A DNA stretch of 64,000 nucleotides from an uncultured Bacilli bacterium. Its GTDB lineage: Bacteria; Bacillota_I; Bacilli_A; RF39; UBA660. Within the stretch, counting starts at the first letter, position 1; each line of letters opens with the position of its first letter. The notes beneath the pieces were generated by a model. It searched no databases. It was not told the origin of the DNA and saw only the letters and a program-made list of their open reading frames with translations. Of this stretch, positions 68-5,001 are shown piece by piece. The DNA is taken from NCBI GenBank assembly GCA_947632085.1, contig CANRNY010000003.1, forward strand, positions 1 through 64,000, given 5' to 3'. Position numbers and translations under genes: made by a program.

Positions 68-263
68 TCCTACTCCTCATACTTTTCTTTTTTGTTAGAT
101 AAGATAAATCATCAACTCTATTATCACCAATCTTTCTATCTTTATATTACTTTATTAATCATTACATAATGATTATAGCACTTAAAAAAGCAAACGGATA
201 TGTTTAGTTTATAAAATTTTATTTTTTACATTTTATACTAATATTTATATTAATCTAATTGAA

Positions 264-291
264 GAAAAAAAAGTAAACAATAATTGTTTAC
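264..291 (-). terminator. Intrinsic terminator of the surface-protein gene
   Basis: A near-perfect inverted repeat at 273-291 (GTAAACAAT and ATTGTTTAC) is followed on the minus strand by a run of Ts (264-272). It lies directly after the stop codon of the gene ending at 297. Confidence 0.8.
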
Positions 292-296
292 CTCTT

Positions 297-1886
297 TTAA
301 TAATTATATTTAGTTTGTTTGCCTAAAATTACTTTTACTAATAATAATGAACTAATTAATGATATAAAACTTAAAATGATGTAAGTTTCAATGTTATCTA
401 TTGTATTAGGATTTTTTTCATTTTGATTATTATTTGATACAAGGTTTCCATTAGTATTATCATTTGTTGAATTTACTGTTTGCGCTAAGGCATAAGTACT
501 AAAATGATATGTAAAAAACTTAAGATATTTTTTATTGTTTAAATAAACAATTTCACCTTCTAATGTTTCACCAATACTTGCATCGTCTTTAATGTAATAT
601 ACTTTATGTTTAGAACCAACAATATAATCGTCACTTACAGGAACGTATACTTCAATACCACGATCTATTTTATTTATTATTGTATCATTTGAGTATGCAC
701 TTAATGTTATGTTAAAAGCTATATCTACTTTTAAATTATTTTTATTGAAAGCATCTTTAACATACTTTTTATTTTTTACATCTTGACCAGTTACTTTAGC
801 ATCTAATGGTACATCATAACTTGAAGTTTTAACATTAACACCGCTATTTTTATCAACTGATTCAATTATTACATCGTCTAGTTCTTCTTTTGAAACTTCA
901 AGAACACCAATCTCTATATTTTTACCATTAAAATTCATCGTAACAAAATATTCATTATAATCTGGATCTTTTTCTACGACTATATTACTAATTTGAACTT
1001 TGTTATTAAAATATTCTTTTAATCTTTTTTTGACTTTTTCCTTAATATTTCCAGGTTCATCTTTATCAACATATAGTAGTTTAATTGCATCAATTGATAT
1101 ATGTTTGGCAGCGTAAACAATTCCATTTTTAGAATATGTAATAAAGTACATTGCACCTTCAACACCTAATGCTGATCCGTAACCAGCATCAACGATTTGA
1201 ATTTCATCTAAATCAAAAGTCTCTAGGACCTTTTTTATCTCTTGATTATAATACAATAAATCTTTTGGGCATTCATAATCTGTATGATAAATTAAATTAA
1301 AATATGATAAACTATCTATTTTATAATCGTTTTTAAAAAGATTAATTTTGGAAAATGCTTTATCTATTTCCTTTTCATCATAATCAGTATTATAAATGAT
1401 TTTTACATCAATTGAATCTGTTTGGTATTTTCCTTCAGTTTCAGTAATATCACCACTTAAAGATGCTGTATTTTTTTCTTTTAAATAAAAAGAGATATCG
1501 TCATTATAAAGACCTTTCTTATTTAGATAGGCATCAAACATACTATGGTAGTAATTATCTTTACAATATCCAATTTGTTCATTTTGCCATTCTTCTTTTG
1601 ATTGCAATGTTTCACCGTGTTCTTGGTGATATTCAATATTTAAATTGAAGTTAGCAACATAATCTTCATAGTCTTCGGAAATAATAGGACAGAAATCATC
1701 AAAATGTTCTATCATTATATCTGGATCTATGTAGTTAACTTTTAAATAGTATGAGCCATCTTTATCGACTGATAAATATTTTTCTTTAAATGTATTAACT
1801 GCCTGAATAGCTTCTTCTTCAGTTAATGCATAAGTCATTGTTGGTACAAGAATCAATGAAATTAGAAATATTAATATTTTTTTCAC
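297..1886 (-). CDS. Secreted, probably sortase-anchored surface protein
   Basis: The 529-residue protein has an N-terminal signal peptide (hydrophobic stretch about residues 4-20, likely cut after TYA). Its C-terminus has an NPNTID motif, then a hydrophobic segment and a basic tail (KQTKYNY), the layout of a cell-wall sorting signal. Just before it is an HFSTYALA segment, often seen at the C-terminal end of Firmicutes wall proteins. The middle holds no domain I recognise. The start is GTG at 1886, behind AAAGGTG. A sortase gene lies about 24 kb away, and its neighbour carries a similar NPTTSD motif, so that sortase could serve both; this is inference. The gene is monocistronic, with its own promoter containing a poly-G tract and its own terminator. 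Confidence 0.75.
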   Translation of the reverse strand: MKKILIFLISLILVPTMTYALTEEEAIQAVNTFKEKYLSVDKDGSYYLKVNYIDPDIMIEHFDDFCPIISEDYEDYVANFNLNIEYHQEHGETLQSKEEWQNEQIGYCKDNYYHSMFDAYLNKKGLYNDDISFYLKEKNTASLSGDITETEGKYQTDSIDVKIIYNTDYDEKEIDKAFSKINLFKNDYKIDSLSYFNLIYHTDYECPKDLLYYNQEIKKVLETFDLDEIQIVDAGYGSALGVEGAMYFITYSKNGIVYAAKHISIDAIKLLYVDKDEPGNIKEKVKKRLKEYFNNKVQISNIVVEKDPDYNEYFVTMNFNGKNIEIGVLEVSKEELDDVIIESVDKNSGVNVKTSSYDVPLDAKVTGQDVKNKKYVKDAFNKNNLKVDIAFNITLSAYSNDTIINKIDRGIEVYVPVSDDYIVGSKHKVYYIKDDASIGETLEGEIVYLNNKKYLKFFTYHFSTYALAQTVNSTNDNTNGNLVSNNNQNEKNPNTIDNIETYIILSFISLISSLLLVKVILGKQTKYNY

Positions 1887-1945
1887 TTATATCACCTTTC
1901 TTTTTGAGCTTGTTTTTTACAAACTTTTTTTCCTTTCTACTTTTA

Positions 1946-1975
1946 AGTATACCCCCCCCGATTAGACGTAGTCAA
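1946..1975 (-). promoter_or_regulatory. Promoter with 8-G tract in the spacer (candidate phase-variable promoter)
   Basis: On the minus strand a TTGACT -35 (1970-1975) is separated by 18 bases from a TATACT -10 (1946-1951). Eight of those 18 bases are an uninterrupted G run (plus-strand Cs at 1952-1959). Loss of one G would give the optimal 17-base spacing. The promoter lies about 60 bases before the GTG start of the surface protein. No other run of this length of G or C was noticed in the window. Confidence 0.7.
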
Positions 1976-2009
1976 TAAAATTTCAATGTTAAAACAAAGT
2001 TAAAGATAG

Positions 2010-2034
2010 AAAAAAAGTAAACATATTCGTTTAC
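2010..2034 (-). terminator. Intrinsic terminator of rsgA
   Basis: A hairpin (GTAAACATATTCGTTTAC, 2017-2034) is followed on the minus strand by a seven-T run (2010-2016), just after the rsgA stop codon. Confidence 0.8.
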
Positions 2035-2055
2035 TTTTGATGATTAGTAATTGAA

Positions 2056-3042
2056 TTACTTCCTTTTTATTTCACTAATTATTTTATAATAACTTTCATA
2101 ACGCTTAAGATTTATAGATTTATTTAGTTCTTGTTTAATAGCACAACTTGATACTGGTTCATCATAATGAAGACAGTTATGGTACTTACATAAATTATTG
2201 TAGGGAATAAATTCTTTATAATAGTTTTTAATATCAGATATATTAAAATCTTTTAAGCTTAAACTTCTAATACCAGGAGTATCAATAATACCAGAATTAG
2301 AAGACCATATGTAGTATTTAGATGAGGTCGTTGTATGGCAACCTCTTTTGGTTTTATCACCGATATTATTAGTTTTTATTATATCATCTGCTAATAGATA
2401 ATTGGTAAGAGATGATTTACCAACGCCACTATTACCAACAAAGATACAAGTTTTATTTAGAAGTTTTTCTTGTAAGATATTTAATCCTTCTTTAGTTTTA
2501 GTAGATGTTTTAATCGTTTCATAACCTAACTTTTCGTAAAAACTTATTATTTTATCTTCTTTTGGGGTTGATAAGTCACATTTGTTAAAACAGATAAGAA
2601 ATGGAATATGACTATTTTCTAGAAGAATAATATAACGATCAATAAAGTTAGGATGGATGGGAGGATTATTTACAGCTACGACGATAACTGCTAAATCGAT
2701 ATTAACAGCTGTTATTTTATTATCACCTATACTATTTAATTTAGAACCATCATACTTATCACGACTTAAAATATTTTTTCTTTTAATAATATCAGTTATT
2801 TCGTTATTATTTAGAATTACTTTATCACCTGGGAAGATTAATTTATTTATAACATAGGGGAATTTTTTAGATAAAGTTACTTCTAAGATTTCATTATCTT
2901 TATAGACATAAGCATTATGATAGTTAGTTTCAATTACTAGAGCAAAATCTTTTGTTTCATTAATAAAATTAATTTTAATATTTTTTTCTTTTCTTGCTTT
3001 TTTTATATTTTCATATCTTTTATGATGGGTTATTTTAATCAC
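2056..3042 (-). CDS. rsgA: Ribosome small-subunit biogenesis GTPase RsgA
   Basis: RsgA is a circularly permuted GTPase acting late in 30S assembly. The 328-residue protein shows the permuted motif order: NKCD (G4) first, then GNSGVGKSS (G1), then DTPG (G3). A C-terminal zinc-binding knuckle follows (CKYHNCLHYDEPVSSC). The N-terminal ~90 residues would be the OB-fold part. The start is uncertain: the frame opens with GTG at 3042 almost on top of AAAGG, and no ATG lies nearby, so a non-ATG start a few codons downstream is possible. The gene has its own consensus-like promoter and a ~150-base leader with a 20-codon upstream ORF. Confidence 0.93.
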   Translation of the reverse strand: MIKITHHKRYENIKKARKEKNIKINFINETKDFALVIETNYHNAYVYKDNEILEVTLSKKFPYVINKLIFPGDKVILNNNEITDIIKRKNILSRDKYDGSKLNSIGDNKITAVNIDLAVIVVAVNNPPIHPNFIDRYIILLENSHIPFLICFNKCDLSTPKEDKIISFYEKLGYETIKTSTKTKEGLNILQEKLLNKTCIFVGNSGVGKSSLTNYLLADDIIKTNNIGDKTKRGCHTTTSSKYYIWSSNSGIIDTPGIRSLSLKDFNISDIKNYYKEFIPYNNLCKYHNCLHYDEPVSSCAIKQELNKSINLKRYESYYKIISEIKRK

Positions 3043-3227: not shown

Positions 3228-4124
3228 TTAACGATTAAAATACTTAATTGCTTTTTTAGAGAAAGATAAAGTTGGATTTAAATCGTTAATTCTATCTATA
3301 TCCATAAATTCATTAAGTAATTCTTCAACAGTATAATTTCCATCAAAGATAGATTGAATACGAGATATTATATATTCTTTAGTACTAGCACTACCATAGT
3401 AGTATTCTGAAAATAAATTGTATGCACGAACATCAGAGATAACATATTTAGAATCGATAAGAGCATCATCTTCACTTTTTAATAATCTTTTTTGATGATA
3501 TTCTTTTAATTCACGAGCTAAAGTTTCTATTTCGTAAATACGTCTTTTATCTTCAGTTCTTAATATTTTTTCACCTTTAGCTAAAAGTTCGGCGATTTGA
3601 AGTTCAATAAAGACACTTAGTACTTCTGAGTTATAGTATGAACCAATAGCACCATTTACGGAATCAACTTCAGCATGAGTTATTTCATGGGTATATGAAC
3701 AAGATGTTAATTCAGTTACAAGACTTGATAATTCGATACCAATAAAGGAAATGGGCGGATAAGTATCTTTAGAAAGTTCAGTTATTAAACCACCATAAAA
3801 GGCTTCATCAGTAACTGTTTTAGGTATAACAGGTAAAGCAAATGGACTTACCTTTTGACGTTTTACAAATTTTAAAAAACGAGTATTTAGAAGATATCTT
3901 AAAGATGGAACATCATGAAGTTTATAAAATGATGCAAAGAATTGTCTAGTATCTCTTAAAGCATCTTCTATTTGCATACGATGAATTTTACTAACTATTT
4001 GGTTTACTTCTAACTTACCAATATTAGAAGCGGTAATAATTAAATCAATTGTTGGTATATAAGGTTTTATTTCACTTATATAACCTCTTCTCTTTATTTG
4101 TTCATTGATTGATATTTCTGCCAT
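3228..4124 (-). CDS. Putative HExxH zinc metallopeptidase, paralogue 2 of a tandem pair
   Basis: I do not recognise the family. The 298-residue protein has no signal peptide or membrane segment. Residues 146-150 read HEITH, a zincin-type HExxH motif, inside YTHEITHAEVD. A glutamate at 167, 17 residues after the second histidine, is matched at the same spacing in the neighbour and could be the third zinc ligand. The protein is a diverged copy of the next gene upstream (4129-5001): both open with EQIK-RGY, and both share the HEITH block and a C-terminal helical region. The ATG at 4124 follows GGGGG. The two genes are 4 bases apart and form one operon. Peptidase activity is inferred from the motif only. 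Confidence 0.6.
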   Translation of the reverse strand: MAEISINEQIKRRGYISEIKPYIPTIDLIITASNIGKLEVNQIVSKIHRMQIEDALRDTRQFFASFYKLHDVPSLRYLLNTRFLKFVKRQKVSPFALPVIPKTVTDEAFYGGLITELSKDTYPPISFIGIELSSLVTELTSCSYTHEITHAEVDSVNGAIGSYYNSEVLSVFIELQIAELLAKGEKILRTEDKRRIYEIETLARELKEYHQKRLLKSEDDALIDSKYVISDVRAYNLFSEYYYGSASTKEYIISRIQSIFDGNYTVEELLNEFMDIDRINDLNPTLSFSKKAIKYFNR

Positions 4125-4128
4125 TATA

Positions 4129-5001
4129 TTAAATCCCCCTTAAATGACTTTTAAATAGTTCTTTATCAATGCTATTTTCATAAGTTATATTAAAATATGC
4201 TAATAAGTCTTCAACACTCATAAGATGGTTAAATACTCTTTGAATACCAACCATAATAGTTCGACGTAAATTTATATCACCTTCAATGTATTTATAAAAT
4301 AAGTGATAAGCTTTTAAAGTACTATGTAAGTATGAAGTACCTTCAAGTAGAATATCATGAATTTCAGGATTTGTAGTATCGTGATATTGATCTAACTCGG
4401 TAATTATTTCTTTTAATTCGCGTAAACGATAATAATCGTGAATTCTCATTAAATCTTTATTTAGACTTTCAGAGGCTTCAACTAGTTCAAGAAAAATACT
4501 TAAAAACTCAATATTATTATAATCATGAATAGAATCTGGTAGATGATTTAATTGAGTATGAGTTATTTCGTGAGTATAAGCAAGAGATGCTAATTCAGTT
4601 AAGTCTTTTGATAATTCTATCCAGCGATATTTTAAAGACGAACAAGCCTTAGCTTTGGTGTTAAAGATTAGAACTTCATGAGAACAACCATAAAATAAAT
4701 CAGTATCAGATATTGTTTTAACAGGAAGCTTAAAAGGATGAATACTACTAGATAGTTCGATAGAAAATGGAATATGACCTATTTTCTTTTCATAGGGAAC
4801 ATTATGTAAATTAAAATATTTTAATAGAAATGAACGACTATAATATAAGACTTCTTTTTTAGACATTTTTTTAATTTCTGTGTTTTCTTTTAGTAATGGC
4901 GTAATTAAAGATGATAGACTTAGTAGTTCTTTTGATGGACGTTTGATAACCGGTAATTCACTATATCCACGATGTTTAATTTGTTCGGCATAACTAGTCA
5001 T
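4129..5001 (-). CDS. Putative HExxH zinc metallopeptidase, paralogue 1 of a tandem pair
   Basis: The 290-residue predicted cytoplasmic protein is paralogous to the next gene. HEITH is at residues 144-148 (AYTHEITHTQL) and the aligned glutamate is at 165 (NNIEFLSIF), giving HExxH with a 16-residue gap to E. This is within the broad range of gluzincin peptidases but no named family is claimed. The start ATG at 5001 follows AAGGGGGC. It is the first gene of the pair and has a perfect consensus vegetative promoter just upstream, suggesting strong constitutive expression. Substrate and role are unknown. Confidence 0.6.
   Translation of the reverse strand: MTSYAEQIKHRGYSELPVIKRPSKELLSLSSLITPLLKENTEIKKMSKKEVLYYSRSFLLKYFNLHNVPYEKKIGHIPFSIELSSSIHPFKLPVKTISDTDLFYGCSHEVLIFNTKAKACSSLKYRWIELSKDLTELASLAYTHEITHTQLNHLPDSIHDYNNIEFLSIFLELVEASESLNKDLMRIHDYYRLRELKEIITELDQYHDTTNPEIHDILLEGTSYLHSTLKAYHLFYKYIEGDINLRRTIMVGIQRVFNHLMSVEDLLAYFNITYENSIDKELFKSHLRGI

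Follow-up and report, generated by a model that had tools for sequence, protein, structure and literature searches.

Why does an AT-rich genome keep a run of eight Gs between the two core elements of a promoter, and what might the run do there? The question arises from a single site in a 64,000-nucleotide stretch of DNA from an uncultured Bacilli bacterium (hereafter the window). An initial annotation had described the site as TTGACT, an 18-base spacer with eight Gs and TATACT, and this is confirmed by direct reading of the minus strand from 1975 to 1946. It covered this one site, for which it proposed phase variation through spacer length; our main finding is a genome-wide set of promoters of the same design. 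We propose that the G8 tract acts as a contingency locus within a promoter spacer, where slippage would tune the transcription of a surface-protein gene, and that this genome has 18 or more promoters built in this way. We give this reading a probability of about 0.86.

The promoter, its gene and their surroundings

The -35-like hexamer TTGACT (1970..1975, minus strand, read directly) matches TTGACA at five of six positions. It is followed by the spacer ACGTCTAATC+GGGGGGGG (1952..1969, minus), whose total of 18 bases is within a few bases of 17, and by the -10-like hexamer TATACT (1946..1951, minus). The G8 tract (1952..1959, minus) abuts the -10 element and is the proposed site of slippage. 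No other G/C run in the window reaches six, the next longest in the 64 kb being of five. The two hexamers match at 10 of 12 positions. Such hexamers alone are no evidence, because AT-rich DNA gives as many when shuffled: pairs of promoter-like hexamers in the window were not above chance (24 sites, against 24.5 in shuffles). It is the G8 tract and its placement that exceed chance.

The promoter lies 60 bases upstream of a gene encoding a 529-residue protein with a signal peptide (MKKILIFLISLILVPTMTYA), which begins with GTG at 1886 (297..1886, minus). A ribosome-binding-site-like sequence, GAAAGGTG, is placed at 1893..1900 (minus) from its spacing to this GTG. Hairpins followed by T runs are found at both ends of the unit. 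One (GTAAACAATTATTGTTTAC..., 262..291, minus) is a likely terminator 3' of the gene. The other (AAAAGTAAAC...GTTTACTTTTTTT, 2007..2038, minus, inverted repeat arms at 2013-2022/2029-2038) stands between the promoter and the upstream neighbour, an RsgA-like GTPase (2056..3042, minus; PF03193, E 6.3e-49), and likely isolates the gene from rsgA; a terminator scan based on G+C did not pick it up. Hence, transcription from the G8 promoter probably covers this gene only. At higher coordinates, also on the minus strand, are two tandem paralogous genes (3228-4124 and 4129-5001) of about 295 residues, whose THEITH motif is reminiscent of a metalloprotease site; of the two, the first has no Pfam match.

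The protein ends in an NPNTID motif, a hydrophobic segment and a basic tail (300..413, minus), recognised by inspection, and the genome encodes four sortase domains above the cut-off. The elements expected of a sortase substrate (Pro/Thr motif, hydrophobic segment, positive tail, sortase in the genome) are thus all present, and together with the signal peptide they point to a predicted location at the cell surface. The protein matches no Pfam or NCBIfam model, including the curated LPxTG-type ones, and for this reason we call its tail sorting-like only. Among 69 genomes searched, two others of the same family encode distant relatives of its C-terminal part, and no close orthologue of the gene was found.

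Long G runs in the genome and in its relatives

The initial annotation regarded an 8-G run as striking in so AT-rich a genome, and the genome bears this out. In its 1.71 Mb, pattern searches, on which all genome statistics rest, found 22 distinct runs of at least eight Gs on either strand, where a first-order Markov model fitted to the dinucleotides of the window expects 0.75. As many as 18 of these 22 runs lie between -35-like and -10-like hexamers. The -35 of these tract promoters is TTGACA in 13 cases, TTGACT in one, TTGCTT in three and a weaker TTGTTG in one, while the -10 starts with TA straight after the tract. The pattern GGGGGGGGTATA has 14 sites in this genome and none in the reversed control.

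Three other runs, of G8 or G9, are in the coding frames of envelope-related genes (contigs C9 at 50727, C9 at 70007 and C13 at 43577; L202, L203 and L206). A YfhO-like membrane protein reads through its tract, whereas a DUF6020 protein and an acyltransferase-3 are frameshifted, which would match the pattern of translational phase variation. The remaining run, a G8 preceded by GGGA (contig 17, 43078; L208), precedes a cold-shock-like gene, and its contig ends 77 bases away; neither a promoter nor a reading frame explains it. Two G5 versions of tract promoters (C3:84265-84287 and C1:55242) are possibly contracted or locked alleles. Contig ends close to tracts, which might betray mixed populations, were in excess (5 against 1.4 expected among the matches listed), but we did not use this because repeated promoters break assemblies too.

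What do these promoters control? An xPxTxD motif, a hydrophobic stretch and a basic tail end the protein of the first gene in 12 of the 18 cases, so that the window protein shares its NPNTID-type tail with 11 other tract-controlled proteins. The other products include an O-antigen-ligase-like protein, an SPFH protein and small membrane proteins. Judging from these predicted products, tract promoters seem to serve mostly secreted proteins of sortase-anchored type.

The same design recurs in relatives. The pattern GGGGGGGGTATA gave 43 matches against one in the reversed control (117 genomes), and TTGACAN{6,14}GGGGGGTA gave 76 against one (146 genomes), in 17 of the 146 genomes and mostly in the window's own family. 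A scan of genomes of named species returned at least 118 stretches among the matches listed, many from uncultured gut Bacilli and Clostridia of animals; also among the matches listed were Streptococcus, Streptobacillus, Selenomonadaceae, Spirochaetes and Saccharibacteria. Poly-G promoters with TTGACA were then counted in 50 of these genomes, reaching 39 in uncultured Bacilli bacterium Lapin-017 bin44 (G148; L094 and others) and 21 in Streptobacillus notomytis (G172; L093, L168), with no match in the reversed control of these 50; the genomes were chosen because each had a match, and therefore information comes only from counts higher than one and from the empty control. Several Streptococcus genomes carry a surface-protein promoter of this design (L127 7619-7645, L273, L276, L147, L175, L274), and we take the protein behind it to be PspA-like. 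In one genome (G038; L034, L047) a palindrome, GACCGAAAGGTC, made up of hexamer and spacer, lies beside the tract, which makes the assignment of the -35 uncertain, and G7 and G8 copies stand in tandem genes. We considered a phage origin of the promoters and rejected it, since the promoter pattern had two matches in 2.9 million viral contigs.

Tract length, spacing and competing explanations

If these tracts slip, their lengths should differ between otherwise identical promoters, and they do. Promoters with identical 5' flanks carry 9, 10, 11, 11 and 13 Gs in one genome (G026), 11, 12 and 13 in a second (G024), and 9 (three times) or 10 (five times) in a third (G031); further promoters with the same flanks differ in G number in G028, G122 and G041. 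Overall the tracts range from 7 to 13. Orthologues differ too: of two promoters whose proteins are 90% identical, that of the window genome has G8 and that of a sister species G9, and two of the streptococcal genomes with the PspA-like protein have G8 and G9 between 150 identical bases on each side. In another orthologous pair (71% identity; L009 and L048) the G8 is kept and the upstream flank has diverged. All these numbers are assembled consensus lengths, in any one of which a single-base homopolymer error is possible.

The spacer as a whole has a modal length of 18-19 and is mostly of 15-20 bases across relatives. The length of the tract is anticorrelated with that of the rest of the spacer, both among 63 distinct promoters (rho -0.74) and among the medians of 17 genomes (rho -0.57, p 0.016), as computed on a set collected with a loose, less constrained pattern; the anticorrelation in a first, tighter collection was set aside as a consequence of the search pattern. 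In one genome (G118) 3-4 bases separate the tract from the -35 and 6-7 separate it from the -10, and the whole spacer measures 18-21. Tract-free promoters of the lineage show a weak peak at a spacer of 17 (13 sites at 17). Compensation within the spacer, the placement in G118 and this weak peak together indicate that what is conserved is how far apart the hexamers stand. The proposal that the loss of one G would give the window promoter the optimal spacing of 17 is consistent with the peak, and the assembled spacer of 18, one G over the usual optimum, fits it. Recurrence, length differences between identical flanks and compensation within the spacer thus support the idea of a candidate promoter that varies in phase through spacer length.

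Within the spacer, the tracts nearly always abut the -10 and most adjoin its first T. They are always of G on the non-template strand: no spacer C tract on that strand was found in 146 genomes, whereas 33 matches with G tracts were listed by a similar but somewhat looser search. This strand rule is not predicted by spacer length alone. Loss of mismatch repair, which we considered as a cause of the tracts, was rejected, since MutL is present in the window genome and in most of the family. The strand rule and the presence of MutL both weigh somewhat against a reading by slippage and spacing.

Could the tracts be something other than switches? They might be a fixed binding site for the regulator of a surface-protein regulon, their length being irrelevant. 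The constant strand, the position at the -10 and the shared class of genes are what one would expect of a regulon, but lengths of 7 to 13 that differ between copies with the same flanks are not, nor is a spacer whose parts compensate and, in G118, let the tract shift within it; similar tracts inside genes moreover cause frameshifts. We find this explanation unlikely. Nor do the data sit well with tracts that are static, i.e. a mutational by-product or the fruit of chance, and do no switching. A T placed after a G run is especially prone to become a G, such GnT hotspots extending G runs (PMC12344412), and the tracts adjoin the T of the -10, which suggests that biased mutation may help build them. 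Yet a by-product would not put 18 of the 22 runs between promoter hexamers or hold the total spacing, and would not keep the tract in orthologous promoters with diverged flanks, as between L009 and L048. This makes purely static tracts very unlikely.

An error of sequencing or assembly in homopolymers is more improbable still. The assembly is a draft, and its homopolymer counts may be off by one, but the tract recurs in many independent assemblies, including those of cultured streptococci and of Streptobacillus, so that only single-base lengths are open to error. Finally, phase variation might occur by inversion of the promoter instead of slippage. Inversion is common for surface genes of gut bacteria, but no suitable flanking inverted repeats were found around this promoter: perfect arms are only 10-11 nt long and AT-rich, and one of them is the terminator, which leaves inversion scarcely credible.

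Under the preferred reading, i.e. slippage in a contingency locus, a sigma-A type promoter would hold the G8 tract in its spacer, and slipped-strand replication would add or remove single Gs. The distance between -35 and -10 would thereby become 17, 18, 19 and so on, and the transcription of the surface-protein gene would become stronger or weaker. With 18 or more promoters so designed, most of them serving surface-type proteins, a population might then carry many combinations of expressed surface proteins. The benefit could be evasion of host immunity or of phages, or changed adhesion.

A probable switch of a known kind in new lineages

Promoters with homopolymeric or other repeats are known in several pathogens, and the closest to ours seem to be two. 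In the porA promoter of Neisseria meningitidis, a poly-G tract between the -35 and the -10 sets their spacing and hence transcription, as summarised in PMC7864442, which also presents porA as a major surface protein; the promoter of the window has its tract in the same place, with a predicted effect on transcription and a predicted surface protein as its product. In Treponema pallidum, transcription of tp0126, an OmpW homologue, is best when the poly-G brings the distance to 17, and the poly-G lengths of tp0126 and of tpr genes vary within isolates (PMC7864442). Here too the tract is in the promoter spacer. By analogy, we regard porA and tp0126 as the exact parallels. The initial annotation had cited porA, opc and Haemophilus fimbrial promoters, and the last two are loose parallels: the opc tract of Neisseria is described as taking in the -35 instead of sitting in the spacer (PMC7864442), and the shared divergent promoter of hifA and hifB in Haemophilus influenzae has TA dinucleotide repeats (PMC7911514). 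In the latter the number of repeats also alters promoter spacing, but the unit is a dinucleotide and the promoter serves two divergent genes.

Two other systems share part of the design. The core promoter of fetA in Neisseria contains a homopolymer, a poly-C giving graded expression that is not phase-variable at 6C and is phase-variable at 8C or more (PMC13293289), but its C is on the non-template strand, where the spacers of our 146 genomes are free of C tracts. In Streptococcus pyogenes, an indel of one base in the intergenic poly-T of R28/Spy1337 changes the transcript level of a surface protein (PMC7098570). Here, too, the bacterium belongs to the Bacillota and the product is a surface protein (a predicted one in the window), but the T tract is a single locus between divergent genes, and a mechanism through the spacing of promoter elements is not established there.

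In the literature searched, which was mostly open-access, no Bacilli or Clostridia turned up with poly-G spacer promoters described as a set across the genome. One might speculate further that we are looking at a lineage-wide system, in which a single, interchangeable switch, a poly-G spacer with G always on the non-template strand, serves most of the surface proteins anchored by sortase. We hold this to be rather doubtful. If it were true, the strand of the G would matter beyond spacing, be it through the GnT mutational bias or an effect on RNA polymerase, and the set would evolve together in uncultured Bacilli as well as in other Bacillota. Our main reading has a consequence of its own: uncultured gut bacteria may have a surface that is a random, heritable mosaic. 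The cultured streptococci with the same design offer a tractable system for this idea.

The mechanism is thus known; what appears to be new is its scale, the uniformity of its design and the lineages concerned. The meningococcus is Gram-negative and has few promoters of the porA kind among some 40 phase-variable genes (PMC13293289), whereas the set described here is a uniform one of 18. The treponemal proteins are those of a spirochaete outer membrane, and few of their promoters have the tract strictly in the spacer. Switching by spacer tracts has so far been known for few genes, those of Neisseria and Treponema; in this genome, promoter spacers are where long G runs are mainly used.
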